Part shown: positions 13,596 to 51,208 of the stretch, one piece after another
How positions within the stretch are numbered: the stretch's first letter is position 1
Layout: the number at the start of each line of letters is the position of its first letter
Assembly: GCA_947172415.1 (NCBI GenBank)
Contig: OX359196.1
Coordinates: forward strand, 4,839,901-4,903,900
DNA: 64,000 bases
Direction of reading: 5' to 3'
Source: Chondrosia reniformis
Lineage: Eukaryota > Porifera > Demospongiae > Chondrillida > Chondrillidae
Translations under genes and position numbers: made by a program
The notes under the pieces: generated by a model
Seen by the model: only the letters and a program-made list of their open reading frames with translations
What the model was told of the DNA's origin: nothing
Databases searched by the model: none

Positions 13596-14133
13596 TCTGC
13601 TCTCAGTGTATAGTGCATAAACTGTAGCCTGTTTGTGCCTCGTGCATGTATCAATTTTACACACGCGTTTTATTCTATAGTAATCCATGGCAATATTGTA
13701 TGCATCGAACTTCTACCAGTAAATTAGACAAAAATGTTAATCAGCAGAGGTTCACTGATGTGAAAAAATGATTTTTTCTAGGTTTGCAACCTGCTCATAG
13801 TACCGGTAAAGGATGAAGGCGAATTGCAAGTATTAACTGTGAACATACAATATACGGTACATGATAAGTATTGTCTTATACACATTCAGTATACGATTGG
13901 TTTATACAGACCGCGCCCCCCCCGTAAAGGGGAATCACCTGGGAAATTCCAGCAATTCAGGGTATCGGTAATAATTCCAAGAAGATGAATCACTGGGATA
14001 TTTCAAAACGATGAAATCTTAGCCTTTAGCGAGTGAAGAAAAGCCAACGAACCGACTTAAATCATTCCTGCGCTACTTCGATTTGATACGTAGTATCTAA
14101 CGGATCGAATATAGCGAACCACTTCATCAAACA
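13596..14133 (+). promoter_or_regulatory. Upstream region of cysteine-repeat ART gene 1
   Basis: Non-coding 538 bp between the lysine-rich ART exon and the next ATG, with a run of eight C at about 13917 (CGCGCCCCCCCCGTAAAGGGG). It appears identical to 36851-37388. Its position makes it the likely promoter and 5' UTR; no TATA-like element at a convincing distance can be singled out. Confidence 0.4.
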
Positions 14134-16993
14134 ATGAGTGACACACAACCTGTAAACGATTTCTTAGACCAAGATACCCTGTCAGAATCTGAGGACGTTG
14201 AGAATTTCATTTTGCAGGATGAAAATCACTATCTGGAAGAATCGTCCCAAGAATATGAAGAAGCATTACCTGTACAAGATATTGAAGAAAGATTATCTGT
14301 ACAAGATATTGAAGAAAGATTGTCTGTACAAGATACCGAAGAAAGATTGCCCGTACAAGATATTGAAGATGATGAAGGGTCCTTCTTCCAACCAGTAATA
14401 ACGCACCATTCACCAGGTCCGATAATGGATGATATCCTTGCCATTGAGTCAGCATCTGATGATGATGATGACCATGATATCACAGATGGCTACACTCTCC
14501 CCGAACCTTCCGCCCCATTTAATCAGGGCCCCAGGTCTCGTCACATCCCCTCACACCCTCAACATCAACCTCACCCTCTCAGTGATGAAGGTAGCACTCA
14601 GGTGGTTATTAGTTCCACATTTTCACCGGTAGACAGCCAGGGGGTTACTAGAGGGAGTTGTACTGTTGTAGATTGTACTTGCACACAGTATGGCAAGCAA
14701 CCACATGGAAACAAGTGTGGCAACTGTGGTCACTTTCCTGTAAAGCACATCTCCGTTAAACTGCCATTAAAGGATGATTCTCAACCAGCAGCTGGGCAGT
14801 ATACTGATCACTACAGTGGACAAACAATACAAACAAGCCAGTCATTAGTGGCTCAATCAAAAAACACCTCTCTAGCAGCTGCAGGTATGTAGCACATGCA
14901 AATACAAATGATTCATTTGAATACAATTTTGTAATCTCGTTATTAATTAGCTGAGTTACCAGGGTCAACCACAACTGCCAATAAGTGTGCAATCACTGAA
15001 TGTTATAATCCAAGATATGTTGACCCCTCAACTGGAGCACTGCACACGTGCTGTGGATACACACATGCTATGGAACATCAGAGAAGACAGGCCATTCAGT
15101 CTGGTCAGTTTGGAAGGCAACCAAATTGAATTCTCTAATAATCTAATACACCATTTTCCTACACGGTATATGCATATGTCTACTCTGTAATAAATTAAAA
15201 AAACCTATAGGAAGCTATAATACCTGGAGAGAGCTTTAGATGAAGATACAGGTTTCTTCTCTTCTTTGCTCCACTGAGCCCAACAACTATTTCTGGTAAT
15301 TCCACCCGTCATCAGTGACTCTAGATCTGGACTATTTTGATCATTTGTCAGTCCTTTGGTGAATCTATATACGTATACGTATGTATCACTCTACGGATGG
15401 GAATATACACTCATATTGTCTAATATATATATATATGTTATGTATTGCATCCATCCTCATACATATACGTAGGTCCAGTTCAAAAGGGAATTACTCACTG
15501 CCTACTGCCTGAGTGTTCCAATATTGTTTGGCCTTTCATGAATTACTGCTGTAAGACTCATGCTGACACGGGAAGGCAGCGTGGATTGATGCGTAAGTCC
15601 CTTGTATCTAAACTGTATATGGTGCATATTATATATATCTGAATGATGACAGTTGATTATAGTGGCTACAATACATGCTTTCTGCAGCTCCAATGCCAGA
15701 TCTAACAAATGTGGATACTTCTAGCAAAGACACCAACACATGTTGGTTTCCAACATGCTCTAAACAGAGATTTAAGGAGCCAAATGGGAGAATACATCTT
15801 TACTGTGGCAAAACACATGCTGATATGGCTAGAAAAGCCAATCTTAAAAGTAATCTCTTTATAACTGTAAACAAGACTGGGTTACGTACGTATGTGCAAT
15901 AAAAAAGCTTCCATCTTAAGAAAAAAGTTAATTACCAATTGTACTTCAAATCGTGTATTTTGAATCTTTTTCTAGTTCCAGATGCTGTGAAGTGCATAAT
16001 ACCAGGTTGTAACCAGCAGAAATACAGTAATGGCACTGTATCTCACCCATACTGTTCACAAACCTGTGCTGAAGAAGGGAAAAGAAGAGGGATTTTTCGT
16101 GAGCATTTCATCATTCACATACATTATTACTATAGTACAGCAACTTCTAACATTATAATCATAGCATACAGGGATTATTAAACTGTTTATCAATTGATGT
16201 TTCTTTAGCTCAAGCCGATAGTAAGGAGAATGAATGCTCCTTAGATGGCTGTAACAGGCCAAAATATAGAGAAGGTTCCATAACATTTGACTATTGTTCC
16301 AAGGAGCATGCAAACAAAGCAGGTATATGTTTCATTAGTATTATATACTTCATATGTGTACATATACGTATTAACTTTGCAACTTGTTTAAGCTGCATGC
16401 ATAGTTGTTCAAGTTTTTGAAGAAACCTATTCGTAAATTGCAAGTACAGTACACAAGTACTGTATATATATATTATATATTTTGTTTAATCTAGTCTTAT
16501 TAACACAGACCAGCCTGAACTTAATCTTTCTATTCCAACAGCTACAAATATTCTAAAGAGTAGAAGTGAAGTAGATGCTTTCCTGAAGCAGTATCCCATT
16601 TTGAAAGTCATCAGAATTACAGAGAACCCATCAGCAATGCCACCTAATGGAGCTCTCTTCCAAAAGTTTCAATCTGCTTGGAAACAACTTCCTTCGAATT
16701 CAGGTCAAAGGAATACAATATTAGCCTTTCATGGAACACCTGAAGGAAACATACAAAGTATATGTAACAATGGCTACGACCCAAGCAGACGTAAGGGTCA
16801 AGCATATGGAGCTGGTGAATATTTTGCTGTTTCTCCTGGCACACCTCTAGGATATTGCCATGGTGGTAAGAAGATATTGCTAAATGAACTGCTACTAGGT
16901 CAACATGGAACACATCACACTAGGCATGGAGACATTGTAGTAATGAAACACCCAGCTCATGATCTACCAAGATTTATCATTGAATTTCAATAA
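14134..16993 (+). CDS. Cysteine-repeat ADP-ribosyltransferase-like protein, gene 1
   Basis: Seven exons (14134-14884, 14951-15103, 15473-15592, 15688-15849, 15976-16098, 16209-16322, 16542-16993) join through six phase-1 introns into 624 residues. Exon 1 is acidic, with four 12-residue repeats (VQDIEERLS type, about residues 46-85) and an Asp run, then a Cys/His module (CTCTQYGKQPHGNKCGNCGH). Exons 2-6 each encode one repeat of the form C-x4-C ... Y/H-x-C/Y-C-x-x-T/E-H-A, likely a small zinc-binding unit. Exon 7 is the short PARP-like domain: FHGT, GAGEYFAVSP, HGDIVVM (H-Y-D triad). The dipeptide NS before GQRN is present, unlike in the 42867 and 25861 exons. No signal peptide or membrane segment is seen. 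A mono-ADP-ribosyltransferase or NAD+-binding role is inferred. Confidence 0.8.
14266..14370 (+). repeat. 36-bp coding repeat in exon 1
   Basis: Four adjacent near-copies of a 36-base unit (CTGTACAAGATATTGAAGAA plus 16 bases) encode the 12-residue acidic repeat. The same array is in gene 2 at 37521-37625; the paralogue at 48576 lacks it. Confidence 0.9.
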
Positions 16994-17218
16994 AGCTATT
17001 ATTTGTGCTTCAATGAAATATTTGACATCCTTTGTTTAGATTATTCTTTGCATGCGTATTACTATTTATAGAAATAGGAGACTTCAAATATGTACACATA
17101 TAAGCCATGTCAGTTATTAGAAATGATTATGTATGGATATATTTGCAATTTTAAATGTAATTAAATTGAGATGTAGAACCTTTCTAATCCAGTCACACAT
17201 ACGGGACCTACATTATCT
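16994..17218 (+). other. 3' flank of gene 1
   Basis: The sequence after the stop (GCTATTATTTGTGCTTCAAT...) is shared with the 3' flanks at 40245 and 43313, so the whole 3' end was duplicated with the catalytic exon. No further gene. Confidence 0.6.
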
Positions 17219-22170: not shown

Positions 22171-22870
22171 TTAAGCCTTCTTTTGCTGGCTGCCTGAGAG
22201 AGCTTTGGAGCCAGCTGCAGAAGGGCAAGTAGTAGCCCTATGCTGTGGGCTACGGCAGACTGAGCAGACATGGGTCAGCCTGCATGTCTTAAAGGGGCAA
22301 TAGTTGCCATCATTCCACTTGTCACAAGTGGGGGCCTTCCTCTTTTGAGGGGGATGATTAGCTGGTTGAGACGTGGTGGTGGTGGTGGCTTTAACTAGAC
22401 TAAGGGCCCACAGCTCTTGATCTAGCAGGCCCCACTTGAGAGATGGGTCGGCCACGACATTGGCTCTGAAAGAGCGCTCATATGCAGCCCAGGCTAAACT
22501 GGGATGGTCCCGTGCCAACCGGGCCACAGTGCCAACGAAGGTAAGTAGATCTCCCCCAAGATGAGGGTTGACCGAGAGAAGGGCCTGGCTATAAGTGCAA
22601 AATGCAAGCACCCAGTCGGTAAATTTTTCAATGGCTGGGGCTTTCTTTTTTTTCCTTCTGGGTAGAGGATTGAGTCCTGGATTTTTTCCGGAAGGAGTTC
22701 TGATAACTCCACATAGTGATTAGCTTTTATCTTCGAGAAGATGTCTGCTGGGATGGTTGGCAATCCCCCACTCAACACCAGCCCCACATTAATTTTCAGT
22801 GGATGGCTTGCTGCTGGTGGCTGGGTTGCCTTCTTTGATCTTAGATTCAGTGGAACCAGCCAGCAAATTG
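22171..22870 (-). pseudogene. Gag-like frame of DIRS-like element
   Basis: Two overlapping minus-strand frames. The left one (22611-22171) contains a Cys/His motif set (CDKWNDGNYCPFKTCRLTHV and CSVCRSPQHRATTC). The right one begins near 22870 and carries GGLPTIPADIFSKIKANHYV. They are out of phase at a run of eight A/T near 22650. Known DIRS gag proteins have a similar conserved central part and C-terminal zinc motifs. Confidence 0.7.
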
Positions 22871-22926
22871 ACTACAGGTTCAAAATCCTGAGTCTCATTA
22901 TTTTCATGGGTTACATCTGCAAAGTG

Positions 22927-31867: not shown

Positions 31868-31921
31868 TCCAGGTCGTTCCTACTTTTTTTATAGCAATTT
31901 TTATTTTGTTTTAATATATAG

Positions 31922-32817
31922 TTATGCAACATCAGCCACCAGAACATAATGATATCAAGTTTATATTAATGACCGCCAACCCTACAGAGCAAGCTACTGT
32001 GCGTCACTTCTTGGGGTCATCCTCTATAAAGCAAAGTGATACAATATTCCCATATACCTACAAGACTGATCCTATCTTATGTAAGGTCAAAGTTGAGCCT
32101 ATCAAAGATGAAGGAGATTATGATATCTTCTCCATTAATGGTCACAGAGGAATTCATGTCAGATGTGGGGAGATTGGTAGTGGTGGTAAAATAGGCTCTC
32201 ATGTCACTACAGCAAAAATCTTGGAAATCGCCAGACAAAGAAAATGGCCTTTGCAAGTGGTCTTCTGTGTTGGATGTTGCGGTTGCAGTTCTGACAAGAC
32301 CAACCTCTGTGGGTATGTATTGCTGACCAGTCACCTTGAAGATTATAATCGAGGGAAAATGCTACCAGATAAATTGCATCGAGTGCCACAACCATACGAG
32401 ATGAGTGGAACCTGGAAGGGGTATATGGAGGAGGAAGCTATCACTTGTCCAGATGAAACAGCTGAATATAATGAGATTAAATATGAAAATCCGGAAGCCA
32501 TTCTTTCTGGAGACTTTGTGGTGAAAGACAAAACCCAAGCAGAGGAAATTCGAGGCAAGAAAAAATTTGTTGGAATTGAAATGGAGGGAAAAGGCATTGC
32601 AGAAGCTTTCACTATATTCTCTAAACTTTCTTGTGATAGCTTCCTTGTTGTTAAAGGTGTGTCTGACTATGCTGGTTCAGAGAAGTCGGAGCCAGCAAAG
32701 GCCAACTGGTTTGGAAAGGACACTGAATTACCCGTTTCTGATGGTGAGAGGCAAAGGATAGCAACCATTCAAGCTACAGCTTTAGTTTGCCGTACCATTG
32801 CTAAGAAGATGCATTGA
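31922..32817 (+). CDS. Nucleoside phosphorylase-domain exon, gene 2
   Basis: A complete PNP_UDP/MTAN-type domain of about 297 residues, after a TATAG acceptor in phase 1. It keeps the ILMTANPTEQATV start, CGEIGSGGKIG, VFCVGCCGCSS, GIEMEGKGIAEAF and GVSDYAGS motifs. Compared with the 7214 exon it has scattered replacements and is three to four residues shorter after TIFS (TIFSKLSCDSF against TIFSTYLPLSQDSF), yet the frame is kept, which suggests recent or ongoing function. No CARD exon is found upstream; instead the linker array, and before it cysteine-repeat exons, precede it. ATG 31924 could serve as a start if it is expressed alone. Confidence 0.7.
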
Positions 32818-33112
32818 AATTAACATTTTCTATATAGCTAATTTACTCTAGAGATAGAAGATGGATAGACATTTATAGTTAAAGTTACTGTAGTGACAGA
32901 TCAAACCTGTTTACATATGCAACTATATTTGATAGGAGATTATGTATACATTTGTATATTCATGATTGCTGTATAAGTTTAATAAAGGATACATATATAA
33001 TGTACGTATATGCAAATTAATATATAACGCTGAATATACTATGTATATATTATGACAAAGTTAATAAGTTTTAATGCACACAATTCAGTTTTAATATTGC
33101 ATCCAGCCTCAA
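32818..33112. other. Convergent spacer
   Basis: AT-rich 3' flanks of the phosphorylase exon and the minus-strand ORF, with an AATAAA at about 32981. It matches 8122-8388. Confidence 0.5.
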
Positions 33113-33592
33113 TCAGGCTGGGGTTTTGCAGTCCTTCAGAAATGAGAAGCCTTCAGGTGGTCGCTCTTTTGTAGGCTTACAGCCATGGTAAATTTGAAAA
33201 ATTTGCTCCCTTTGAATGCGCACAGCATACATGATATAGTATGAGGAGAGTAGTTGAGCGGTAGGTTTTGGAGATTCATTATTACATTCGATCCAGTTGT
33301 ACCTATTTCTTGAATAGAAATATATGTTCCATTCTTCTATACGTTTTTGATATTTCTTAAAGATCCCTTGCTCAACCTCTAATTCAGTCCTCAACATCTT
33401 CAATTCTGTATCATTTATCATCAAAATATGGTTCATTTTAACTGATCGAAATGCTTGACAAAAGGATACGAGATCTAGACTTTCATTATGGAAATCAAAT
33501 TTTGAATGCGCCCCTAAATTACAGATGTGGTTATTGTAATATTTCTGTGAGATGACATCTTTGGGTTTGCTGTTGATGTTACCAATACACAT
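33113..33592 (-). CDS. Unknown minus-strand ORF, copy 2
   Basis: Counterpart of 8389-8994, open for 159 codons from MCIGNINSK to the stop. A TATA deletion upstream shifts the longer N-terminal frame of copy 1. About eight amino-acid differences are seen over 159 codons and few silent ones, a pattern closer to neutral drift than to strong constraint. Confidence 0.35.
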   Translation of the reverse strand: MCIGNINSKPKDVISQKYYNNHICNLGAHSKFDFHNESLDLVSFCQAFRSVKMNHILMINDTELKMLRTELEVEQGIFKKYQKRIEEWNIYFYSRNRYNWIECNNESPKPTAQLLSSYYIMYAVRIQREQIFQIYHGCKPTKERPPEGFSFLKDCKTPA

Positions 33593-34520
33593 TGGTATGA
33601 AAGTTGATTTATTAGATTCTTGTATCTTTAATTCCCCTATACAGAATATGATGGAGAATTATATAGTGTTACGTTGCAATAATAGAATGTGAGAGTCAGC
33701 AACACTTATTGAAATCAGAGTAATTGTATTATGTTTCAACCCAGAGGATTTATTGCTGATAAAAACATTGATCCACTGATTGTTAATTTCAAAAACAAAT
33801 ATTCCCTACCGTACTATACTCCTATACCATACTGTATCTATTATATGTATAATTACAATTCAAACTCACTAGCATTTGGGAGTAATGATGCAGTAGCCAT
33901 GCATATGGCAAGCACAAGGAAAAACAGAGTCTTACAGTACATTGGGAATACCAGGGATGTCAATATACCTTACAATCATACACCGTCTCTATACCGTTAC
34001 CTATTTTGATCCGATTTGCTATATATATATACAGCCTCGCAATTGTATGAATTTGAAAATGAAGTTATTGTATATACGTACATATATACATCTATTGTTA
34101 AATTGTACAATGCATAATGAATAACTGTTCGTATTCAAATTCAAATTTCAATATAAACAGAAATGAAAAGCTATATAACTTTATGTACATTGTTACCATA
34201 CTATGACATTAATATGACAACCAAGACTTAGTATATATATTTAATAGCTAAATTAATAATACCATACGTATATATATCATATAGTGCATGACTGATCATG
34301 ACTATAAACTATTATTGGCTAAAAATTGTATAATTAATCAAATCTGTCATCTTGCTAATGACAAACACTCATGATCAGTCTCATAAGCTTTCTGCCCAGC
34401 CCATACTTGGAACTCCATGCATTTATATACAAATTCACTTTTCTTTCATTAACATAAACCAATAGTATACGTATCTGGGGATATTTTAGCCTAAAAAGTA
34501 TATACAGTATGTAACTTATA
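33593..34520. other. AT-rich intergenic stretch, no gene seen
   Basis: Counterpart of 8995-9796 with small insertions and deletions. No splice-compatible frame. Confidence 0.6.
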
Positions 34521-35060
34521 ATAAGCAAATAATCACTGGAATGTATTACGCCAAACCAGCCCAGTGACCACAGTCTAGCTAATCTTGGCTGGAGGACCGA
34601 AAGTTCCAGTGATTATGTATATCATCATAGCCTTTAATTGTACATGTATGACTCAGTGCAATTAAATCCCTTAGTTCATTACGAGTGCTCAGTTTCGTCT
34701 AGATTGTAGCCTTCACCTTCACTTATAATGAAACCACAAGTGTTTCACCTGCATGTAGTTGATTAATAAGTGAAGGCAGTCATCCAAACTTACCATCATT
34801 GAAGTGTACCACACTGATGAGCCCAAATGAGGAAGAAACAGCTATCTGTGGTTCTTTGATGATTTGTTTCCATCTTGGGAGGCAATCACTGGTTGCCATT
34901 TTAATAGGACTTTGGTCCCCAGCCAAGATTAGACTGTGATCACTTAGCTGGTTTAGCGTAATAGGTTCCAGCCAAGATTAGACTGTGATCACTTGGTTGG
35001 TTTGGCATAATAGGTTCCGGCCAAGATTAGACTGTGATTACTTGGCTGGTATTTGCTTAT
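34521..35060. mobile_element. Inverted-repeat element with triplicated right end, copy 2
   Basis: Same arms and the same three right-end units as 9797-10328, with point differences. It was present before the segment duplicated. Confidence 0.8.
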
Positions 35061-35700
35061 CATCACAGCCTTTGCACGGGGCTCAGCGTAATTACCTCCC
35101 ATAGTTCAATGTAACTTACATATATTATATTAATTTCACCATATTCTGATTAAGAACAAGGCAACAGTATATAGTTCTCCATGGCTCAATTTTATACCTG
35201 TTAATGTTATATATTCATGTTATGAGTATATTTAAATATAGTTTGCACTTTGAAGTGATCAGCTTTTTATTTAAATTGTCTGGTATATATAAATTTGTTA
35301 TGGTGAATAGGTACATTCAAATTTAAAAGAGAACTAGAATAAAAATAAAAATAAACTATATTGTAGCATATAAATGTGTGCATACTGTATACATGAAACC
35401 AACTATATAAGCATAACATAATATTTGTAATGTATATAGCTAGACGGTCTATATAGATTATCTTTAAATACCACCATAAAATATATATATGATATCTACT
35501 GCACTCAACTTTGGGAACTAATATGTAGTATACATGGTAAGCTGAAGCTCTGGGGAAATTCCCTAAAAGTAAACGTAACCACCTAACGTCATCCCCATTT
35601 TCTTAGAAGGGTAAATGATGTTTCCTCGAAAAATATCTGAGATATTTGTGTATTTGGTAACAAAGATACTCACCGCTTGTATATAGTCTATACTAGTGTA
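35061..35700. other. Intergenic flank, lacks the LINE fragment
   Basis: It reads through the LINE insertion site at about 35266-35285 (CAGCTTTTTATTTAAATTGT) and then becomes the upstream flank of the truncated PARP-like gene, near-identical to 11610-11769 at its end. Confidence 0.6.
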
Positions 35701-36300
35701 ATGGAGTTGTACTTGGAGGAGAACGCTAATATCCAACAGGCTTTCTTAAGTACTTGGACGAAAAACCCTAACAACAAGCCGAGGAGTAGCGATGTCGCAG
35801 CCGTATTCCGAGTAGAAAATGATATATTAAAGAAGAACTTTGAACAATATTGTGTATCGTTAGGATCGTACGCTAACGTTGGATGGTATTATCATGGTAC
35901 CGTACTTAGGTGTGACATTGTTGCCAATCAGAGGTGCTGTACCAATTCTTCGTGCAGTGTGTGTGGCGTGTGTCGTGAAGGCTTTAGTACTAGCAAAGTT
36001 CACTCGCACGTTAGCTATCAGAGATTTGGTCATGCCTTTTACCTAGCCCCAAATTCATCCAAATGTCATGAGTATTCTGAGGGATACAATGGATACAGAG
36101 CTTTACTATACTGTCAAGTTGCAGTCGGCCGCGCCTATGAACCTCCAACTGATGATCCTTCACTGAGGCAGCCCCCTTTAGGCTATGATAGCATATATGG
36201 ACGCAAGGGGGTACATCATGGAGGGATCGGGTCATTAAATTATGATGAGGTGGCAATCTATATATACATGCGCAAAAATACATTATGCATAATTTATTAG
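35701..36300 (+). pseudogene. PARP-like H-Y-E gene, copy 2, C-terminally truncated
   Basis: Identical in translation to 11770-12402 as far as NYDEVAIY, just past the catalytic Glu. A deletion then joins it to sequence 0.67 kb downstream, giving the foreign tail IYMRKNTLCIIY and a stop. The final strand (AILPKYIITY in copy 1), which packs in the core of PARP catalytic domains, is lost. The product may be unstable or inactive, though H, Y and E remain. Confidence 0.85.
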
Positions 36301-36407
36301 TCCTAAATTTTACACATGCACACATATGTATACGAGTCTCAAACTGTATATATGTATTGCAGCTTCTATAATTACTTCTACTTTTAATTCTACTTTTTAA
36401 ATATTAG

Positions 36408-36850
36408 CTCTCAAACTTAAGAGTAGAGCTGAAGTAGATGCTTTCTTGGAAGCGTTTTCTGATTTAAAGGTCATCAAAATTACAGAGAACCCATCAGCAA
36501 TGCCACCTAATGGAGCTCTCTTCCAAAAGTTTCAATCTGCTTGGAAAAAACTTCCTTCAGGTCAAAGGAATACAATATTAGCCTTTCATGGAACAGCTGA
36601 CGGAAACATACAAAGTATATGTAACAATGGCTACGACCCAAGTAAAAGAAAGCGTCAAGCTAAAGGAGCTGGTGAATATTTTGCTGTGACTCCAGTTACT
36701 CCTAAAGGCTGCTCTAAAATCGGGAAAAAGATGTTACTGAATGAACTACTGTTAGGAAAAGAAGGAACGCATCACACTAAGCATGGAGATGTTGTAGTAA
36801 TGAAATATCCAACTCACGATCTACCAAGATTCATAATTGAATTTCAGTAA
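36408..36850 (+). CDS. Short PARP-like catalytic exon, lysine-rich variant, copy 2
   Basis: Same exon and acceptor as 13153-13595, with identical translation. The candidate upstream exon of copy 1 (ending 12838) is removed here by the 0.67-kb deletion, which leaves the exon only about 110 bp after the truncated PARP-like frame. A transcript running from the H-Y-E gene into this exon is conceivable but not supported by any donor I can see. Confidence 0.45.
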
Positions 36851-37388
36851 TCTGCTCTCAGTGTATAGTGCATAAACTGTAGCCTGTTTGTGCCTCGTGC
36901 ATGTATCAATTTTACACACGCGTTTTATTCTATAGTAATCCATGGCAATATTGTATGCATCGAACTTCTACCAGTAAATTAGACAAAAATGTTAATCAGC
37001 AGAGGTTCACTGATGTGAAAAAATGATTTTTTCTAGGTTTGCAACCTGCTCATAGTACCGGTAAAGGATGAAGGCGAATTGCAAGTATTAACTGTGAACA
37101 TACAATATACGGTACATGATAAGTATTGTCTTATACACATTCAGTATACGATTGGTTTATACAGACCGCGCCCCCCCCGTAAAGGGGAATCACCTGGGAA
37201 ATTCCAGCAATTCAGGGTATCGGTAATAATTCCAAGAAGATGAATCACTGGGATATTTCAAAACGATGAAATCTTAGCCTTTAGCGAGTGAAGAAAAGCC
37301 AACGAACCGACTTAAATCATTCCTGCGCTACTTCGATTTGATACGTAGTATCTAACGGATCGAATATAGCGAACCACTTCATCAAACA
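36851..37388 (+). promoter_or_regulatory. Upstream region of cysteine-repeat ART gene 2
   Basis: Same 538 bp as 13596-14133, including the C8 run. No difference noticed. Confidence 0.4.
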
Positions 37389-40244
37389 ATGAGTGACACA
37401 CAACCTGTAAACGATTTCTTAGACCAAGATACCCTGTCAGAATCTGAGGACGTTGAGAATTTCATTTTGCAGGATGAAAATCACTATCTGGAAGAATCGT
37501 CCCAAGAATATGAAGAAGCATTACCTGTACAAGATATTGAAGAAAGATTATCTGTACAAGATATTGAAGAAAGATTGTCTGTACAAGATACCGAAGAAAG
37601 ATTGCCCGTACAAGATATTGAAGATGATGAAGGGTCCTTCTTCCAACCAGTAATAACGCACCATTCACCAGGTCCGATAATGGATGATATCCTTGCCATT
37701 GAGTCAGCATCTGATGATGATGATGACCATGATATCACAGATGGCTACACTCTCCCCGAACCTTCCGCCCCATTTAATCAGGGCCCCAGGTCTCGTCACA
37801 TCCCCTCACACCCTCAACATCAACCTCACCCTCTCAGTGATGAAGGTAGCACTCAGGTGGTTATTAGTTCCACATTTTCACCGGTAGACAGCCAGGGGGT
37901 TACTAGAGGGAGTTGTACTGTTGTAGATTGTACTTGCACACAGTATGGCAAGCAACCACATGGAAACAAGTGTGGCAACTGTGGTCACTTTCCTGTAAAG
38001 CACATCTCCGTTAAACTGCCATTAAAGGATGATTCTCAACCAGCAGCTGGGCAGTATACTGATCACTACAGTGGACAAACAATACAAACAAGCCAGTCAT
38101 TAGTGGCTCAATCAAAAAACACCTCTCTAGCAGCTGCAGGTATGTAGCACATGCAAATACAAATGATTCATTTGAATACAATTTTGTAATCTCGTTATTA
38201 ATTAGCTGAGTTACCAGGGTCAACCACAACTGCCAATAAGTGTGCAATCACTGAATGTTATAATCCAAGATATGTTGACCCCTCAACTGGAGCACTGCAC
38301 ACGTGCTGTGGATACACACATGCTATGGAACATCAGAGAAGACAGGCCATTCAGTCTGGTCAGTTTGGAAGGCAACCAAATTGAATTCTCTAATAATCTA
38401 ATACACCATTTTCCTACACGGTATATGCATATGTCTACTCTGTAATAAATTAAAAAAACCTATAGGAAGCTATAATACCTGGAGAGAGCTTTAGATGAAG
38501 ATACAGGTTTCTTCTCTTCTTTGCTCCACTGAGCCCAACAACTATTTCTGGTAATTCCACCCGTCATCAGTGACTCTAGATCTGGACTATTTTGATCATT
38601 TGTCAGTCCTTTGGTGAATCTATATACGTATACGTATGTATCACTCTACGGATGGGAATATACACTCATATTGTCTAATATATATATATATGTTATGTAT
38701 TGCATCCATCCTCATACATATACGTAGGTCCAGTTCAAAAGGGAATTACTCACTGCCTACTGCCTGAGTGTTCCAATATTGTTTGGCCTTTCATGAATTA
38801 CTGCTGTAAGACTCATGCTGACACGGGAAGGCAGCGTGGATTGATGCGTAAGTCCCTTGTATCTAAACTGTATATGGTGCATATTATATATATCTGAATG
38901 ATGACAGTTGATTATAGTGGCTACAATACATGCTTTCTGCAGCTCCAATGCCAGATCTAACAAATGTGGATACTTCTAGCAAAGACACCAACACATGTTG
39001 GTTTCCAACATGCTCTAAACAGAGATTTAAGGAGCCAAATGGGAGAATACATCTTTACTGTGGCAAAACACATGCTGATATGGCTAGAAAAGCCAATCTT
39101 AAAAGTAATGTCTTTATAACTGTAAACAAGACTGGGTTACGTACGTATATATGTGCAATAAAAAAGCTTCCATCTTAAGAAAAAAGTTAATTACCAATTG
39201 TACTTCAAATCGTGTATTTTGAATCTTTTTCTAGTTCCAGATGCTGTGAAGTGCATAATACCAGGTTGTAACCAGCAGAAATACAGTGATGGCACTGTAT
39301 CTCACTCATACTGTTCAAAAACCTGTGCTGAAGAAGGGAAAAGAAGAGGGATTTTTCGTGAGCATTTCATCATTCACATACATTATTACTATAGTACAGC
39401 AACTTCTAACATTATAATCATAGCATACAGGGATTATTAAACTGTTTATTAATTGATGTTTCTTTAGCTCAAGCCGATAGTAAGGAGAATGAATGCTCCT
39501 TAGATGGCTGTAACAGGCCAAAATATAGAGAAGGTTCCATAACATTTGACTATTGTTCCAAGGAGCATGCAAACAAAGCAGGTATATGTTTCATTAGTAT
39601 TATATACTTCATATGTGTACATATATGTATTAACTTTGCAACTTGTTTAAGCTGCATGCATTGTTGTTCAAGTTTTTGAAGAAACCTATTCGTAAATTGC
39701 AAGTACAGTACACAAGTATATAAGTATATATTTTGTTTAATCTAGTCTTATTAACACAGACCAGCCTGAACTTAATCTTTCTATTCCAACAGCTACAAAT
39801 ATTCTAAAGAGTAGAAGTGAAGTAGATGCTTTCCTGAAGCAGTATCCCATTTTGAAAGTCATCAGAATTACAGAGAACCCATCAGCAATGCCACATAATG
39901 GAGCTCTCTTCCAAAAGTTTCAATCTGCTTGGAAACAACTTCCTTCGAATTCAGGTCAAAGGAATACAATATTAGCCTTTCATGGAACACCTGAAGGAAA
40001 CATACAAAGTATATGTAACAATGGCTACGACCCAAGCAGACGTAAGGGTCAAGCATATGGAGCTGGTGAATATTTTGCTGTTTCTCCTAGCACACCTCTA
40101 GGATATTGCCATGGTGGTAAAAAGATATTGCTAAATGAACTGCTACTAGGTCAACATGGAACACATCACACTAGGCATGGAGATATTGTAGTAATGAAAA
40201 ACCCAGCTCATGATCTACCAAGATTTATCATTGAATTTCAATAA
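37389..40244 (+). CDS. Cysteine-repeat ADP-ribosyltransferase-like protein, gene 2
   Basis: Exons 37389-38139, 38206-38358, 38728-38847, 38943-39104, 39235-39357, 39468-39581 and 39793-40244, all phase 1, giving 624 residues like gene 1. The first four exons encode the same protein as gene 1 by eye. Differences begin at 39110 and include repeat 5 (SDGTVSHSYCSKT against SNGTVSHPYCSQT), MPHNG for MPPNG, SPSTP for SPGTP, and MKNPAHD for MKHPAHD. The domains are as in gene 1: acidic repeats, a Cys/His module, five cysteine repeats and a catalytic exon with FHGT, GEYFA and HGDIVVM. No disabling change is seen, so both copies look able to work. Confidence 0.8.
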
Positions 40245-40865
40245 AGCTATTATTTGTGCTTCAATGAAATATTTGACATCTTTTGTTTAGATTATTTAAA
40301 TTGCTTGTGTAATACTATGTATTATTAGAAATAGCAGACTTCAACCACGTACACATATAAGCCATGTCATTTCTAATTATAAGAAATGATTATGTATGGA
40401 TATACTTGTATACTGTATTAAATTTAGATGTGGAGCCTTTCTAATCCAATCACATATGGGACCTATCTGGCTGCATTAGACAAGTAATTAGATTTACGTG
40501 ACATAAGTTCTTCAGATGTGATCGATATCTTTGCAAATGGACATCCTGTTCAGGTAGGGTAGTTACACAATACAGTTTGGTTTTGGTTCAATATGTAGAT
40601 TTTTAACCACACAATTGTTGGAAATTCCCTTGAACTTCTAAAGAAATTATGTGGTTTTAATAAGAAAAGCAAGCTGATTGGAAGTGTGTAAGATGGCTAC
40701 CTGTGACCTCCTCAGTTCCAAGTTCTTAGTTTAAATGTACAGTATATTTATTTCTAAATCAGAAGAGCCTAAAGTTTATCAAAAATTAAGATACCATCCT
40801 TGAAAAGGTGTCTTCTGCCTGTTAGTTACTAATTGATACTGTGAGGGAAGGAAATATACTCTCAC
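40245..40865. other. 3' flank and intron-like paralogous sequence
   Basis: It contains the shared ART 3' flank with a single minisatellite-type unit (about 40471) and then sequence homologous to 24912-25172 and 43860-44110. No independent gene. Confidence 0.55.
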
Positions 40866-40889
40866 ATGATATATATGTGTATTCAAAAA

Positions 40890-41560
40890 CTTCTTATTTT
40901 ATATAGTCAAATAGATTTAGAGAAAAGATATATAAGGAATCTATACTCATTGAATGTACTATTCACTTGGCTCAGGAATTCTCACTTGGAAGAAGCTATT
41001 GTCAGCCCTTATTCTGTATATACATACATAGTAATCCACTTAATCTTCTTAGTGAGAAAGTATATTAAACCTATAGCTTATAGTCATATATACCTTATTG
41101 TCATTATTTGGCCTATCTTTATCATTTGACTCTGGATTTTATCCTACCCATTAAGTCTCCTGAGGAACGCAATGATGCTTCAGTACCGTCACTGAGGAAA
41201 CATGAGTGGGTGGGGTAAAACCAAGAAATATATGTTGATGATATAAATTTTAAGATTAGTCTTAAAGTACTGTAGTTTTCATTATTTGGCTTCTATATCA
41301 GAGAGTACGGTAGTACTCTCTAAGTAGGGATGGCCCGAAAAAAAATGGATGCCGTATTCAATGTATTACGGGTTAACACCTTATAAGTAGGCAGCGAATG
41401 CGTTTTTACCTCTTTTCCTACTTCTCATTTCATTTTTTAAATGTTTTTATTTACTTGTATGATAGTTATGTATCCATCGGAGTATATACGTAGGTGGAGG
41501 AGTATCCATTTTGAGACTGTTATATGTTTACTGTTATATGACATCCTGAGAAGGTTGTTG
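40890..41560 (+). pseudogene. Decayed exons of a reticulon-type domain
   Basis: 40908-41050 matches exon 1 of the gene at 44123 but has several small deletions that break the frame (DLEKRY is recognisable, then the phase shifts). 41469-41555 matches the start of exon 2 with an insertion of eight bases (GTATATACGTAGG). This is the third, most decayed copy of the module. Confidence 0.8.
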
Positions 41561-41975
41561 TTTTTGCTACAAACATGTACGTACGCATGTAAGTACATGA
41601 CCTCCTTTGAATTCCTGAACAGTGTGGTATGGAAGATAATGATGTAACCTTAGGTTTTGTAATAAGCATAGCCCTGGTGGCTTAAACCAGCTGTTCAAGG
41701 TTCATTTCACAGCCATTGTCTCTCTTTCATGGTTACCCTGATTGAGAGAGGAAGAGGATAAGAAAGGAGAAGGAGAAACTCTTGTATCCTCATCCGAAGT
41801 GCCCACTATAGATTCCTTATAGACCTTCTACTCTAAAGTATGTTGAAAATGATTCATTAATTAAAATGTTGTGGTCCGTCTATCACTTAAACTATTCATT
41901 TTACATTTTAGAGAAGTCTCTGCAGTACATTTGACCTCCCTAATCCTGTGCCCCTATCAATGATAGGCCGCCCCT

Positions 41976-43312
41976 ATGGAATTCCCCACACCAGGCCAGT
42001 TTGCCTTCCCCAGGGGGAGCCTATGGAACATGCAGGCCGACTATTTCTCTAATTCCACTATCTGTTTGAGTCCTGCCACATATAGGACAATATCCTTTGA
42101 GTACATACAAACCTTACCATCTTCGCATCCTGTACACATCTTACATCAGCAGATTAATCCACCAATCAGAATGTCTCCTTCAGGGTTCCTCCCACTGCAG
42201 CTGATTCCCACGCAGGTGTCCCCTTTAATGGAAGTTCACCATCAAGCTTTTGGATACCCGATTAACCAGAACAGTCCTCATGTATTGTACTCTCCCATTT
42301 CTTACCCGATGTATCCTCCTCAGCTGAACCAGGGATCTCCTCTACCTTTTGCTGCCAGTAACTACCCTTCTCATTTGCAGATAGTGAAGCAGAATTACAA
42401 ACCGCCATCTTGCAGCACACAGACTGCTCCCAAAAGTATGTACAACACAACATACGTATACTAGTATACTGAAAGAAAAGTCTTAGAACAGTAGATTATA
42501 CATACTCACAACTATACCAATGTGCTAGAAGGCCTTTTCGGATAATACCACTCCTCATCAGTAGCACTGGGTATTCTAGAGTCGCTAAGTTACCAAATAC
42601 CCAGACTTTCGAAAGGGATTGGTCATCAAACAATAACCTAGCAACTCTACTACAACTACAATCTCTACATAATATACTAGTATATGCAGCCCGTCAGTCG
42701 TTGAAACACTTAACATGTCATTTTTACCGTGCATACACTGCAGGTCAAATTTTAGCTTCAATAGCTTTGTATTTCCTTGTTTAATACTGCCTATCTGAGA
42801 ATGCTTCAAAGAATTAATTGTAATTTACTTATGGGTATGTATACACCCAATTTTCCATTTCAACAGATGTTGACATACTGAAGAGTATGCACGATGTAAA
42901 AGAATTCCTGAAGCAGTTTCCCATTTTGAAGGTCATCAAAATTACAGAGAACCCATCAGCAATGCCACCCAATGGAGCTCTCTTCCAAAAGTTCCATTCT
43001 GCTTGGAAACAACTTCCTTCAGGTCAAAGGAATACAATATTAGCTTTTCATGGAACAGCTGAAGGAAACATACAAAGTATATGTAACAATGGCTACGACA
43101 AAGATAAAAGAAAGCATCAAGCTCATGGAGCTGGTGAATATTTTGCTGTTTCTCCTGGCAAATCTCTAGAATATTGCCATGGTGGTAAGAAGATATTGCT
43201 AAATGAACTGCTACTAGGTCAACATGGAACACATCACACTATGCAAGGAGACATTGTAGTAATGAAATACCCAGCTCATGATCTACCAAGATTTATCATT
43301 GAATTTCAATAA
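41976..43312 (+). CDS. Pro/Gln/Tyr-rich N-terminus plus short PARP-like domain
   Basis: Exons 41976-42435 and 42867-43312 join in phase 1 to give 301 residues. Exon 1 is low-complexity, rich in Pro, Ser, Gln and Tyr (SPISYPMYPPQLNQGSPLPF), probably disordered, and unlike the N-termini of the other family members. A stop lies shortly upstream in frame and ATG 41976 is the first Met, so it is a plausible start, though an acceptor (ATGATAG) just before it could mean an earlier exon. The catalytic exon has FHGTAEGNIQSIC, GAGEYFAVSPGK and QGDIVVMKYP, with a changed loop (DKDKRKHQAHGAG) and LEYCHGGKK. It lacks the NS dipeptide found in most relatives. Confidence 0.6.
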
Positions 43313-44122: not shown

Positions 44123-47100
44123 ATGGAAGGATTTCTACTCTCACATGACTATTCAAAGAATTCTCATTTTAGTCAAGTAGATTTAGAGAAAAGATACAAA
44201 GAGATTTACAAGAATCTATACTCATTAAAAGATTCTATTCACTTGGCTCAGGAAATTCTCACTTGGAAGAAGCCATTGTCATCCCTTATTCTGTATATAG
44301 GAATCCACTCAATCTTCTAGTGAGTAACAAACTTTATGTGTATATATAGCTTATAGTCATATATACCTTATTGTCATTATTTGGCCTATTATCATCATTT
44401 GACTCTGGATTCTATCCTACCCATATAACTCTCCTGAGGAAAGCAATGATGCTTCAGTACCATCCATTAGGCTGCTGAGGAAACATGAGTGGGTGGGGTA
44501 AAACCTAGAATTGAATGACATGATGATAATCAAAACTTTAAGATTAGTCATAAAGTCCTGTTATTTGGTTTCTATGATAGTTGTGTATCCATCGGAGTAG
44601 GTGGAGGAGTGTCCATTTTGAGACTCGTATCTGTTCTACTGTTATATGACATCCTGAGAAGACTAAAGTTGCGTCTCACCTCTAGAAAACCATGTGATCC
44701 AGTGATTGTGTCACTGGACCAGGCTCTATTGGAGTCAAGCAACCAGCACACATACGGCTCCCTCATTAGTTATACACACTTTAGCTTGCTGTTAGCTCAA
44801 GAATGGATGTGGATAGATGCTTCTCTTGTTAGGCTGAGGATGAGAGTAAGTGGGAATCCAAGGATTTGGCTACCTCTCATATTAATTTTCACTGGAATAC
44901 TAATTGCAGAGATGGCCAGATTTATCCCAGGCATTGTATTCAGCTATGCTGTAGGTATGTACTGTATTTGATATTTATATGGCAATTTCATTGGCTGTCA
45001 TTGTCATGTGAGTTTGTTTCTCCTCACTTTCAGTTGTTAGTGTGACTGTTTACCCATTTATTCGATGCTATCATTCCTTTGCTCTGTGGCCATTCACTCT
45101 CCACTTGTGCAAGGAAGTATACAGGAGCTTCATATACATTATAAAGAAAATTGGCTATTTGTTTGTTTTCAGTAAGTTACAAATCTCACTCTTACATCCA
45201 TTTACTGTTACAGCATATACTGTAGCATTTGTATGTGCATAGTATTCCATAGGCTGTCACTATCAAAGTTTTGCAGCTTCACACTTTCAGTTCACTCTTT
45301 AGCTCTGTGTCCATTCACTCACCACTCGTGCAAGGAAGTATACAGGAGCTCTATATACATTATACAGAGAATTGGACATTTATATGTATTCAGTAAGTCA
45401 AAAGTCACACTCTAATTTAACTTATCAAATGATTTACCATACATACGTATGTTCATAGTATATGGAAAGAAAAAGACCTTCTCTAGGAAACTTGCAGCTT
45501 TAAAAGAAAAGTGTTACCGCTCAATAAATGAGTACAAAAAGGCCATCCAGGGTTAGCAAGCCATATCATTTCTCTCATTGCATAAGAAACAAATAGAACC
45601 TCACATTAGTATACCACATGCGTGCATAGATGGGAGAGTGTGATAGCCAAGGTTAAATTAAACACATGTACAGCATTAATATTACAAATTTTGCCGTAAT
45701 ATACGCCTTAGGTAAGAATATTTTAATAGTACACACACACCATGTATTTCATATTAGTTTAGCTATATACTGTATGTTAAATTATACTGTCAGCTAATTA
45801 AAGGTACCCACTTGATTAATATTTTGAATATACGTATATATATACAATCTGCAGATGTTCTAAGGGCTCTAGATACTGAAATAGCTGGTAATAAAACAAC
45901 AGATACTGAAAAAGTTACAGATACACAGAGAATTTCAAAATTAAATATTACTCTGAAGACAACTAGATCTAATGTGGAAGAAGCTCAGACTGTTAGTAAT
46001 TATAAATTAACTGATACTTTTAGTAATATTCAGAGAGTAACTACAGAAACTGAGAATGTTCCTAGCAATTGTCGACCTAAGAAGTCTAGGGGATCTCACT
46101 CAGTGAAAACTCAATCGACTGCTGAATCTACCGATAGTGTCACTGTAGGCATTCAAAGGAAAGTTAATCAGAAAACTTCCAGGTCTAAGACTACCCCAAA
46201 CATCACTACATCTAGTGCAGAAGAAGTTGAGATTCAGGGTGATAAACCCTTAGATACTTGGGGAACCACTGTGGATCCTTGGAGACCAATTGTACATACT
46301 CAAAAAGCTACTACTGATAGTCTTCAAGTTTCTGGACCTCTGATTGCTAAGAAGAATACTAGGTGTGAAGATACTGAGAGAGATAAGAGATCTTCTTTTC
46401 TAGCCACTCATGCAGACACTCATGGCCTTTTTAAAGACACTCAAAGAACTACTATTGACAATTGGAGGCCTAGGGCTACTAAATCTAAAATTACTCAGGT
46501 ACCTACCACATTTCAACCTTTGAAAACTGCTACTGCATCTGCATACATTCAGAAAGGTAAAAGGTCAACAGATACTATTGAAAGTCATTTGGCAAAAGGT
46601 GTGTCTACATATACTGCCAGATCTACAAACATTTCTACAGACACTCAAAGAGCTACCATTGCAATAGACAATTCAAGAGTTTCCGAGCCTAGGCATACTT
46701 TGACTAAAAAGCCTAAATCCAGCAGATCACAATCTCCAGATGCTCCTATTTCTACTAGATATGTAGACACTCAAAGAGCTACTATTGACAATAGGAGGCC
46801 TAGGGCTACTGAATCTAAAATTACTGCACCTACCACATTTCAATCTTTGAAAACTGCTACTGCATCTGCATACACTCAGAAAGGTAAAAGGTCAACAGAT
46901 GTTGGGTATGCTGTTGGAAATCATTTGGCAGAAGGTGTGACTACTACCAGATCTACAAGCACTGGGAAAGCTGCTACAGACACTAAAAGAGCTACCATTG
47001 CAATAGACAATTTGAGAGTTTCCGAGCCTAGGCATACTTTGACTAAAAAACCTAAATCCAGCAGATCACAATCTCTAGATGCTCATATTTCTACTAGATA

Positions 47101-48347
47101 TGTAGACACTCAAAGAGCTAAAATTAAAATTGATTCCAGCGTACAAGGGGGACACAGCAAACAGTCACATGACATTTATGCTAATCCTGCTCATAAAGAC
47201 ATGGACTATAGCTACTCGAGAGGTTAGTTACATATTAACTGTCCATATACAGGCAATGTGTATATGTGTACGTATATTACAAGGCCAACCCAATACGTAT
47301 ATATACATCTTGTCTTTTACTATTATATGACTTTCTTTACGTACAGCTAAACCTAAAACACTCAGGCATGATCAAATGAGCACCACTGGCTGGACAGCTT
47401 TATCTAGTCACTTAATGACACTGCCAATGCTAAAGTTAATTTTCAGTATGTCCCTAAATTTGCATATTATATTTATGTGATTCGTGCATGTCACTATAAT
47501 AATGCACACAGTGCCAGCAGACTATAAGGAGCTGAAAAGTGAGTGTAAAAAAGTCTTTAATCATGCAAGCAAAGCAGATGTGTATAGATCAAGAAAGTAT
47601 ATGCATATATGTCAGTTTTAAACCAGTTGAGGAAGATCTAAAGATCGAAATGTCCTGGATATTGATTGTTTGTGAACTCCAGTGGCCGCACTATCCCTCA
47701 ATAACTCTTACCTTTCAGTTAAATATATGAAAAACAGAAGTTAATAACTGCACAATAATAATGCTAGTGATTATTCTGCATTAACTAGGGAGTATAATTA
47801 TGTAACAAGTTCAATACTACGTATGTTACATAAACACAAGAGTGGCCAATGGATATGGATACACCTGACTGATCTCATTTTTTTCATTTCAACAGATGTT
47901 GACATACTGAAGAGTATGCATGATGTAAAAGAATTCCTGAAGCAGTTTCCCATTTTGAAGGTCATCAAAATTACAGAGAACCCATCAGCAATGCCACCTA
48001 ATGGAGCTCTCTTCCAAATGTTCCATTCTGCTTGGAAACAACTTCCTTCGAATTCAGGTCAAAGGAATACAATATTAGCCTTTCATGGAACAGCTGAAGG
48101 AAACATACAAAGTATATGTAACAATGGCTATGACCCAAGCCGACGTAAGGGTCAAGCTCATGGAGCTGGTGAATATTTTGCTGTTTCTCCTAAAACACCT
48201 CTAGGATATTGCCGTGGTGGTAAGAAGATATTGCTAAATGAGCTGCTACTAGGTCAACATGGAACACATCACACTAGGCATGGAGACATTGTAGTAATGA
48301 AAAACCCAGCTCATGATCTACCAAGATTTATCATTGAATTTCAATAA
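44123..48347 (+). CDS. Reticulon-type (RETREG/FAM134-like) membrane domain fused to a PARP-like domain
   Basis: Eight exons join in frame: 44123-44319, 44581-44954, 45034-45171, 45291-45392, 45855-47222, 47347-47445, 47521-47538 and 47896-48347 (915 residues). Exons 1-2 match the reticulon-homology domain of reticulophagy regulators: LTWKKPLSSLILYIGIHSIF opens the first hairpin, and a GNPRIWLPLILIFTGI ... ARFIPGIVFSYAV second hairpin follows. Exons 3 and 4 are tandem copies of one exon (CKEVYRSFIYIIKKIGYLFV and CKEVYRSSIYIIQRIGHLYV). Exon 5 (456 codons) is Ser/Thr/Asp/Lys-rich with two long internal repeats and a DPWRPI motif of LIR type. Exon 7 is an 18-base microexon. Exon 8 is the ART domain (FHGT, GAGEYFAV, HGDIVVM). 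All introns after the first are phase 1. An ER-anchored ADP-ribosyltransferase-like protein is inferred; transcript evidence is needed to exclude two genes. Confidence 0.7.
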
Positions 48348-48575
48348 ATATTTGAATTACTTTTATTTATGATATAATGCTATATGTATATGTATATACT
48401 TTTGTGGTGCTATTGCTCATGATCAGTTAATATATCAATGTGCATGATGTCAGTCATACTAATATATAGCCAATTCTGGGGTATTCCCCCTAGGAATTCC
48501 AAGTATAATATGCATGTGGTTTTAAGTGGAAACAGTAATTTGTAGGAGAAGAAGAGATTCTGAAGTTGGAAGAAT

Positions 48576-51208
48576 ATGGGAAATAGTTCAAGCTCTAAAT
48601 ATAATGTATCCCAAGCTGAAAGTGAGCCAAACAGTACTGGTAATGGGGAGAGCAAGAAAAGATTGTCACAGACAGATCTAGACCCCACACAAAAGGTAAA
48701 TAACCACTCACAAAAGCCTCCCTCACTCATACAACAATGCATCTCATCTAATCAGGATCCCAGCTCTCATCCCAACCCCTCACATCTTCATCAGTCTCAC
48801 CCTCTCAGTGAAGAAGGTAGCACTCAGAAGGATATTAACCACGTCCTTTCATCAGTAGACAGCCAGGGGGTTGCTAGAGGGAGTTGTACTATGAATGATT
48901 GTACTTGCACACAGTATGGCAAGCAACCACATGGGAACAAGTGTGGCAACTGTGGTCACTTTCCTGTAAAGCACATCTCCGTTAAACTGCCATTAAAAGA
49001 TGATTCTCAACCAGCAGCTGGACAGTATACTGATCATTACAGTGGACAAACAACAAACAAGCCAGTGGTTCAATCAAAAAACACCTCTCCAGCAGGTACG
49101 TAACACATGCAAATACAAATGATTCATTTGAATACAGTTTTTATCATCTCATTAATTAGCTGAGTTACCAGGGTCAACCACAACTGCCAATAAGTGTGCA
49201 ATCACTGAATGTTCTAATCCAAGATATGCTGACCCCTCAACTGGAGCACTGCACATGTGCTGTGGATACACACATGCTATGGAACATCAGAGAAGACAGG
49301 CCATTCAGTCTGGTCAGTTTGGGAGGCAATCCATATTGATACATATACCAAATGAAATCACATGCAGCCTGTATGTATCACTCTATTTGTATAATATATA
49401 TGATATATGCTGGATTCCAACATACTTTGAATACAATATATATATATATTCACAGGTCCAGTTCAAAAGGGAATTACCCACTGCCTACTTCCTGAGTGTT
49501 CCAATATTGTTTGGCCTTTCATGAACTACTGTGGTAGCACTCATGCTGACTTGGGAAAACAGCATGGATTGATGCGTAAGTGCCGCCTAACATACGTACG
49601 TACATCAGAGGTTACCTGCATAGTTAATTACTGTATGCATATTATGTAATCAATGCAGCTCCTATACCAGTGATTGATGTATCCTTTAAAGATGATTCTG
49701 AGTGCCTACTTCCCATATGTAATAAAAAACGATATACAAATCAAGATGGAACTGAACATTTTTTCTGTGGAAGAACACACGGTGTATGGTTCCAAAAAGG
49801 TGGTTTAAAAGGTAATGGTTAAGAGATTTTACAGGGAAAATACAAATGTATATGAGGGGGGCATTGCTGTGGCAGTTGTAGCTCAGTGGCAGAGCAACTG
49901 GTGGTCATAACCAGTTTGATTATTACATCATTTATTCATATATCATAATAAGCCTGTACATATGCAGCTAGGCTCATCAATCATATTTTGCCTATATGCC
50001 ATTGAATAATTCATCATGTACCTTTAATAATCTTACAAATGTGTTGTAAAGTGTGCTTACATATATACAGTACATCTACGTATATAGTTCCTAGTAAATT
50101 CAAGTGCATCATTCCAACTTGTAAAAAGCCAAGAATGAAGACTGTTAAAAGATTTGACCAGCATTACTGTTCACAGAATCATATTGAAAAAGGGAGATCA
50201 TCAAATATTTTGCGTACGTAAGACCCTTTTAGCTCAGCATAAACTATACATGCATGCTTGGAATGATAGTATTATAGCCTTCTTGTATATTATAGCAAAA
50301 GCTGAGAGTGAAGATGATGTTTGTGCTATAAGTGGATGTGACAGAATGAGGGCTGAAGGTGCATATTGCAGCAAGGAACATAAACACGAAGATGGTAAGT
50401 ATACATGCATTTATTATTTATTTGATATCAGTAGACATTCTTTATATATACATCTAGTTACAAACACTATTATAATTAGTACACTTAAAAATTTTATACG
50501 GTATATATGTATACATACTTATATACTAAAAGGGAGCTAATTGTACTTCAGTCACTAGCTTGCAATTGTTTGGTATCTCCCAGTCGTTTCTGTGTTATAC
50601 TGATATCAATGTGGTAAATATGTGTGGTATATTTTTATACCGCATATACGTAAGTATGAGATAGAAATAATTACTCAATGCATGTAAGGCAATCAGTCCT
50701 ATCATGTATAACTAAATGTACTATTAAATCATGACATGCTATACATTCTTGTTAAGCTCAAAGGATTTTGACAAAGATGGAAGATGTCAACATGCTCTTG
50801 AAGCAGTTTAAGACCCTGAAGGTTAAAAATATTGAAGAGAATCCTAACGCAAGTCCACCTGATAAGAAACTGTTCAAGAAATTTCATGAAGCATGGAAAA
50901 AGCTATCTTCAGATCAGAGACAAACAGTTTTAGCATTTCACGGTACACCAGAGAAAAATATTAAGAGTATCTGTGATAACGGTTATGACAGCTCGAAACG
51001 ATGTATTCAAGCATATGGTGCAGGTGAATACTTTGCCACAGAGCCCTCCATTTCCATGGGTTACTGTTGCGCTGGCAAGAAGATGCTGCTAAATGAGCTT
51101 CTTCTTGGCTCTGAGAATGTGCACCACACTAAAGCTAATGGGGGCACTTACATCATCATGAAGGATCCCGCACACGAACTGCCAAGATTTGTGATTGAAT
51201 TTGAATGA
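48576..51208 (+). CDS. Putatively myristoylated cysteine-repeat ADP-ribosyltransferase-like protein
   Basis: Exons 48576-49095, 49160-49312, 49456-49575, 49659-49811, 50088-50213, 50296-50394 and 50757-51208, joined by six phase-1 introns into 540 residues. It begins MGNSSSSKYN, which fits the N-myristoylation rule (Gly2, Ser6), unlike the acidic start of the two genes to the left. A disordered Ser/Asn-rich stretch leads to the shared Cys/His module (CTCTQYGKQPHGNKCGNCGH), then five C-x4-C...C...H repeats, one per exon, more diverged than in genes 1 and 2. The catalytic exon is the most diverged of the family: LAFHGTPEKNIKSIC, GAGEYFATEP, but GGTYIIMKDP, with Thr where others have Asp and PARPs have Glu. 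It could therefore be a mono-transferase or a non-catalytic NAD+ binder. No breaks are seen. Confidence 0.82.

Follow-up and report, generated by a model that had tools for sequence, protein, structure and literature searches.

The window, a 64,000-nucleotide stretch of the genome of the sponge Chondrosia reniformis (C8:4839901-4903900), contains on its + strand an RHD of the RETREG/FAM134 type, a long disordered exon and a compact PARP (ART) domain, which can be read as a single frame. Fourteen chromosomes and a mitochondrial genome, 117.37 Mb in all, have been described for this species (PMC12181767), and our genome searches took in 117,379,552 bases in 15 contigs. The assembly, GCA_947172415.1, has Ensembl and BRAKER3 annotations, both made with the help of RNA data (PMC12181767), and 44123-48347 corresponds to C8:4,884,023-4,888,247 in it. 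Six predicted exons (44123-44319, 44581-44954, 45034-45171, 45291-45392, 45855-47222 and 47896-48347), when joined, give 2631 bases, 876 residues and a single terminal stop, which bears out the coordinates, the GT/AG junctions and the in-frame reading that an earlier, sequence-only reading had proposed for 44123-48347. The features are as follows.

44123..44319, + strand: exon 1, with the start codon, the N-terminal stretch and the start of hairpin 1; open frame and GT donor
44581..44954, + strand: exon 2, with the remainder of hairpin 1, the linker and most of hairpin 2; the PF24456 match spans exons 1-3
45034..45171, + strand: exon 3, with the end of hairpin 2 and the stretch that follows; acceptor of a quality found once per 21333 bases
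45291..45392, + strand: exon 4, optional, which duplicates the 3' part of exon 3 in tandem and has a length that is a multiple of three
45855..47222, + strand: exon 5, encoding a disordered linker that is rich in T/S/K/R and contains an internal repeat; phase 1 at both ends
47225..47227, + strand: TAG in frame, immediately after the exon 5 donor, which would end a PARP-less RETREG-like protein if that donor were unused
47347..47406, + strand: candidate micro-exon with a good acceptor and a poor donor (CTA|GTCACT)
47347..47480, + strand: candidate alternative last exon, reached by splicing exon 5 to 47347 with no further splice and ending at TGA 47478-47480; acceptor of a quality found once per 800 bases
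47502..47538, + strand: candidate micro-exon 7, or first coding exon of a stand-alone PARP, MHTVPADYKELK, phase 1
47896..48347, + strand: exon 8, the terminal exon, with the compact PARP (ART) domain

The earlier list had eight exons, of which these six hold. The other two, micro-exons 6 and 7, are weak and find no support as needed parts (at ~47512-47538 the donor, AAA|GTGAGT, is good and the acceptors are poor), and the frame is intact with or without them. Exon 4 is present as listed, with the correction that it duplicates the 3' part of exon 3. It is 84% identical to 45071-45192 over 122 bases, so that the stretch following the predicted second hairpin occurs twice.

The RHD, the linker and the PARP domain

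Exons 1-3 match PF24456 (RHD_RETREG1-3) with an E of 2e-10 and 40.9 bits against a cut-off of 27, in a query with a surplus S where exons 1 and 2 join. By eye, the hydropathy profile has two main stretches of ~38-40 residues, plus a lesser peak where exons 3 and 4 meet, around residues 226-244. A RETREG-type gene also lies on C11, and its protein scores 59.8 bits against PF24456 and also matches Reticulon weakly. The RHD in the window is 45% identical to it over 207 aa, and together with the PF24456 match this upholds the earlier identification of a RETREG/FAM134-type domain. Even with E allowed to reach 1, the C11 protein had no match to PARP. An NCBIfam scan of the two RHDs returned no family, and the genome search gave a weak further RHD match on C13 (E 0.41).

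The exons of the C11 gene are our own model rather than an annotation, and several candidate exon 4 donors exist there. In this comparison, exon 1 ends at the same place and in the same phase (2) in both genes, as does exon 2 (phase 1), and the phases run 2,1,1 in both. The third intron agrees by phase only, with an exon 3 of 138 bases in the window versus 114 in C11, and exon 4 has no counterpart in the C11 model. Since the two genes have introns in common, the RHD in the window is most likely derived from an intron-bearing copy of a RETREG gene and not from an mRNA. A protein-database search with the RHD found no relative at E 0.001 among 1791 candidates; as it also missed the RETREG proteins of every animal, this outcome reflects low sensitivity, a single divergent RHD being a weak query, and not absence.

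Exon 5 lies within a stop-to-stop ORF of 489 codons, far beyond chance: in 60 simulated 64-kb sequences (Markov-1), no + strand ORF exceeded 162 codons, the longest seen. Rich in T, S, K and R, it contains an internal repeat with copies of 347 and 356 bases; its 456-codon frame is intact despite this 9-base difference in length. Between the repeat copies dN is 0.120 and dS 0.100 over 109 codons (dN/dS ~1.2), and no purifying selection is apparent. The genome search found no match to exon 5 besides its own locus. We rejected exon 5 as a canonical RETREG tail, there being no similarity to the tail of the C11 protein. It holds four [WFY]xx[LIV] cores, at residues 326, 413, 490 and 599, of which the LIR-like core at residue 326 (TDTFSNI) is the only one with three D/E/S/T residues immediately upstream.

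The last exon matches PF00644 with an E of 5.3e-9 and 36.3 bits (cut-off 26.7), and PARP12/13/14/15/10 lead the listed matches to its predicted fold, at ~21-22% identity to PARP12 and PARP14. Its description as a PARP-like catalytic exon is thereby confirmed. The catalytic residues H64 and Y94 are found in 19 of 19 aligned rows. The third triad position was set through a HMMER alignment to PARP12, with what we take to be the PARP12 triad as the reference for placing the residue; it is I in 13 of the 19 rows, V in three and Y in three, and the RHD–PARP gene has H-Y-I by this alignment. Aspartate 131, a candidate for the third residue, was rejected after the PARP12 alignment. An H-Y-E triad is the rule for poly(ADP-ribose) polymerases, and a glutamate occupies the third position in none of the 19 rows. 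The domain would be a PARP12/PARP14-like mono-ADP-ribosyltransferase. The reading frame stops at ...PRFIIEFQ, where the PARP model has its final strand, with no C-terminal tail anchor beyond it. For NAD+ sensing on curved ER, which the sequence-only reading had raised, the catalytic fold is in place and nothing beyond the fold speaks in favour.

The PARP array and its relatives

This PARP subfamily has eight copies in the genome at E 0.001, and all lie within the window (nine matches, one copy being split by a frameshift). Three RHD sequences were picked up in the window (25.2, 40.8 and 44.1 kb), all of them followed by a PARP exon. The neighbouring genes and copies are listed below.

14101..16990, + strand: Cys/His-motif-PARP gene with no RHD, exons read by eye; its plan resembles that of the protein relative P0001
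25182..26284, + strand: second RHD–PARP copy, with the RHD truncated in exon 2 and the PARP frameshifted
37356..40241, + strand: second copy of the Cys/His-motif-PARP gene, exons read by eye
40847..43309, + strand: third RHD–PARP copy, an RHD pseudogene and dispersed repeats, then an open PARP exon at 42863-43309
48564..51205, + strand: Cys/His-motif-PARP gene directly downstream of the RHD–PARP gene, exons read by eye

The PARP copies behind Cys/His-motif exons are, by eye, those at 16.5, 39.8 and 50.8 kb, while those at 13.2 and 36.4 kb are preceded by another PARP exon at 11.7 and 35.6 kb. The segments 11710-13592 and 35641-36847 each have a PARP exon (PF00644, 48.7 bits for the first) followed by a compact PARP exon, a possible double-ART gene; over 144 codons, the compact exons at 13161 and 36416 do not differ. 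A large tandem duplication is visible here, 7207-17235 and 31915-40495, at a spacing of ~23-25 kb, in which ORFs and the PARP-PARP and Cys/His-PARP genes recur; one of its ORFs has a weak phosphorylase-superfamily match below the cut-off. On the minus strand, ORFs at 18973-22871 resemble a tyrosine-recombinase transposon by eye and occupy the place in the array where an RHD copy would otherwise follow a Cys/His-PARP gene. The gene at 48564-51205 may begin MGNSSSS, which by eye is N-myristoylation-like, and could encode a further membrane-tethered ART. Immune-type genes adjoin the PARP array at 1920-4105, where an ORF encodes a Death domain (PF00531, E 1.2e-10); upstream of it is a weak CARD match that stays below the cut-off at 19.4 bits, and the ORF downstream matches nothing in Pfam.

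The RHD–PARP copy at 25 kb is recent, its exon 1 differing at one of 188 aligned bases plus a 9-base gap. In the copy at 40.8 kb, the ORF 41967-42461 was considered as its linker exon and rejected, as 41.56-42.45 kb matches a site on C1 at 80% and a high-copy repeat follows; 42467-42670 is a dispersed repeat of ~200 bases, found in more than 30 places among the 40 of 667 candidates that were scored. Over the first 60 alignment columns, identity to the PARP copy at 47.9 kb is 98% for the copies at 25.9 and 42.9 kb and 62-70% for the other five. The later parts of the copies are mosaic, as would be expected from gene conversion. A grouping of the RHD-linked PARP copies appears with support in the unrooted FastTree tree only (0.945), and the rooted IQ-TREE analysis gives it 32-38%.

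We calculated dN/dS for the 21 pairs of the seven open PARP copies, leaving out the 25.9 kb pseudogene. The ratio is 0.26-0.66 in 14 pairs; the others are one identical pair and six that involve the 50.8 kb copy and have no usable dS. The highest value, 0.66, belongs to the 42.9 and 47.9 kb pair, both behind RHDs, so that constraint on these two appears weak.

Protein searches gave 13 distinct relatives: the PARP region alone had two matches among 131 candidates, and a 386-residue RHD+PARP query had 12 among 5738, at 33-46% query cover, with PARP as the shared Pfam domain. No RHD was found in these 12. P0001 and P0005 have repeated N-terminal Cys/His motifs and a PARP that is 62-66% identical, and P0007, a predicted gene model from the sponge Halichondria panicea, has five WW domains and then the PARP module. 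In P0013 the PARP lies near the N terminus. A 339-aa protein of a second sponge, Oopsacas minuta (P0009), also a predicted gene model, has an Erv1/ALR oxidase domain apparently fused to the same module. This range of plans suggests that the compact PARP exon has been recruited repeatedly as a C-terminal module, the RHD being one more partner.

One gene or two

We scored splice sites with generic weights, which may not suit this genome. The exon 8 acceptor is strong (one such site per 6400 bases) and the exon 5 acceptor poor (one per 64 bases); the exon 3 and exon 4 donors (one per 228) and the exon 2 acceptor (one per 131) are middling. The exon 5 donor, GAG|GTTAGT, has a T at +3 and stands two bases before the in-frame TAG. 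It is equalled or beaten by 67 of the 3504 GTs in the 64 kb, itself included, and is the only GT scoring above 1 in 47000-47240. All RHD donors from exon 2 onward are phase 1, as is the PARP acceptor. This agreement is weak evidence, since it is partly inherited from RETREG and has a chance of ~1/3 for the acceptor and ~1/3 for exon 5. An AATAAA lies at 45523, in the intron preceding exon 5, and a dispersed repeat of ~110-125 bases with 20 further matches lies at 47608-47732, in the intron before the PARP exon.

We favour, at a probability of roughly 0.56, the reading of 44123-48347 as one working, lineage-specific chimeric RHD–PARP gene. In its favour are the in-frame joining, the Pfam matches above curated cut-offs at both ends, the likeness of the RHD and its introns to the C11 gene, the exon 5 donor and exon 8 acceptor with neither AATAAA nor ATTAAA between them, the co-duplication of RHD and PARP, the PARP module behind other domains in two sponges and the H and Y kept in all 19 rows. 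Against it are the two broken RHD copies out of three, the poor exon 5 acceptor, the AATAAA at 45523, the stop beside the exon 5 donor and its T at +3, the exon 5 repeat and the RHD-linked PARP pair with their low constraint, the grouping of RHD-linked PARP copies that only one tree supports, the searches that found no RHD-bearing relative, and the alternative PARP first exon and RHD last exon that can be drawn on sequence grounds. Those last features would make up two neighbouring genes, an arrangement we regard as rather unlikely: a RETREG paralogue ending at the TAG just past exon 5, or via the good acceptor at 47347 at the TGA of the alternative last exon, and a stand-alone PARP starting at ATG 47502 and splicing from 47538 to 47896. 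The stand-alone PARP would have an in-frame ATG and a good phase 1 donor, the only one scoring above -0.5 in 47228-47880. The open PARP exon at 42863-43309 beside a dead RHD indicates that a PARP can persist without its RHD, and three of the 13 relatives (P0004, P0010 and P0012, which may be partial models) have no recognisable N-terminal domain by eye. Against two genes, neither AATAAA nor ATTAAA occurs within 47228-47895. A DNA search with 47223-47895 found no other copy except dispersed-repeat matches at ~47608-47732, which means that no second PARP turned up with the proposed first exon next to it, and in P0001, P0005, P0007 and P0009 the PARP is the C-terminal part behind other sequence.

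Less probable again, in our judgement improbable, is that the single-frame fusion is a transient product of tandem duplication with no settled function. The decay of two of the three copies, the exon 5 repeat with its dN/dS near 1.2 and the confinement of exon 5 to this locus would all fit such a product, but the ratios below 1 in the 14 PARP pairs, the frame kept at every junction of the intact copy and the exon 5 frame preserved through a change in repeat length argue the other way.

On the preferred reading of one chimeric gene, an ordinary RETREG gene would have been copied locally, with exons 1-3 and their introns retained, and this copy would have come to lie upstream of a compact PARP terminal exon, with a newly gained disordered exon joining the phase-1 RHD donor to the phase-1 PARP acceptor. 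If a single transcript is made, the protein would have a two-hairpin RHD in the ER membrane, ~490 mostly disordered residues and a PARP domain that, given the two-hairpin plan, would face cytosolic NAD+. The RHD may gather the putative enzyme where the ER is curved or fragmenting, with the linker providing reach, and the enzyme would add single ADP-ribose units to proteins on or near that membrane, much as PARP16 probably does through a different anchor. Such a protein would be an independent route to an ER-surface ART, implying that ADP-ribosylation there can be re-invented, and would offer a natural tool directing mono-ADP-ribosylation to curved ER.

More speculatively, the compact mono-ART exon might be a sponge-wide promiscuous C-terminal module, spread by phase-compatible exon shuffling to WW domains, ALR, Cys/His arrays, another PARP and the RHD, and here, beside a Death-domain gene, made into an ER-phagy-type receptor with built-in ADP-ribosylation that acts in innate defence or under ER stress. 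Should the remaining fused gene models prove correct too, the several different partners of the sponge ART module would make it a good example of a domain recruited time and again early in animals.

Comparison with known systems

The sequence-only reading knew of no described protein joining an RHD to an ART, and a search for RHD, ADP-ribosyl and PARP together found no such fusion in the portion of the open-licence literature covered. The broader idea of a membrane-anchored sponge PARP is not new, as an Amphimedon 'PARP12-like' protein with an N-terminal transmembrane domain has been described (PMC4245714). Like the gene described here, it has a sponge PARP behind an N-terminal membrane segment; unlike it, it is described there in a passage that mentions no RHD.

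The RETREG1-3/FAM134 ER-phagy receptors resemble the N-terminal part of the predicted protein, with an RHD whose two long hydrophobic stretches are judged by eye, corresponding introns and a disordered tail. They differ in that the tail here is an unrelated T/S/K/R-rich exon plus a PARP, with no clear LIR.

PARP16 is the best-known ER-anchored PARP and would be the nearest working analogue. It is an ER tail-anchored ART required in the unfolded protein response (PMC4245714). Its anchor is a C-terminal tail, in contrast to the N-terminal RHD here, and the predicted fold matches here are led by the PARP12 group instead. PARP12 and PARP14 themselves share only ~21-22% identity with this domain, which is compact at 150 residues, and the parts we scanned gave no match to CCCH, WWE or macrodomain. 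Members of the same PARP subfamily are the Cys/His-motif-PARP proteins (P0001, P0005 and the cluster neighbours), in which repeated Cys/His motifs take the place of the RHD. The Halichondria panicea WW-PARP and Oopsacas minuta ALR-PARP models likewise end in the same C-terminal PARP, with WW repeats or an Erv1/ALR domain standing where the Chondrosia gene has its RHD.
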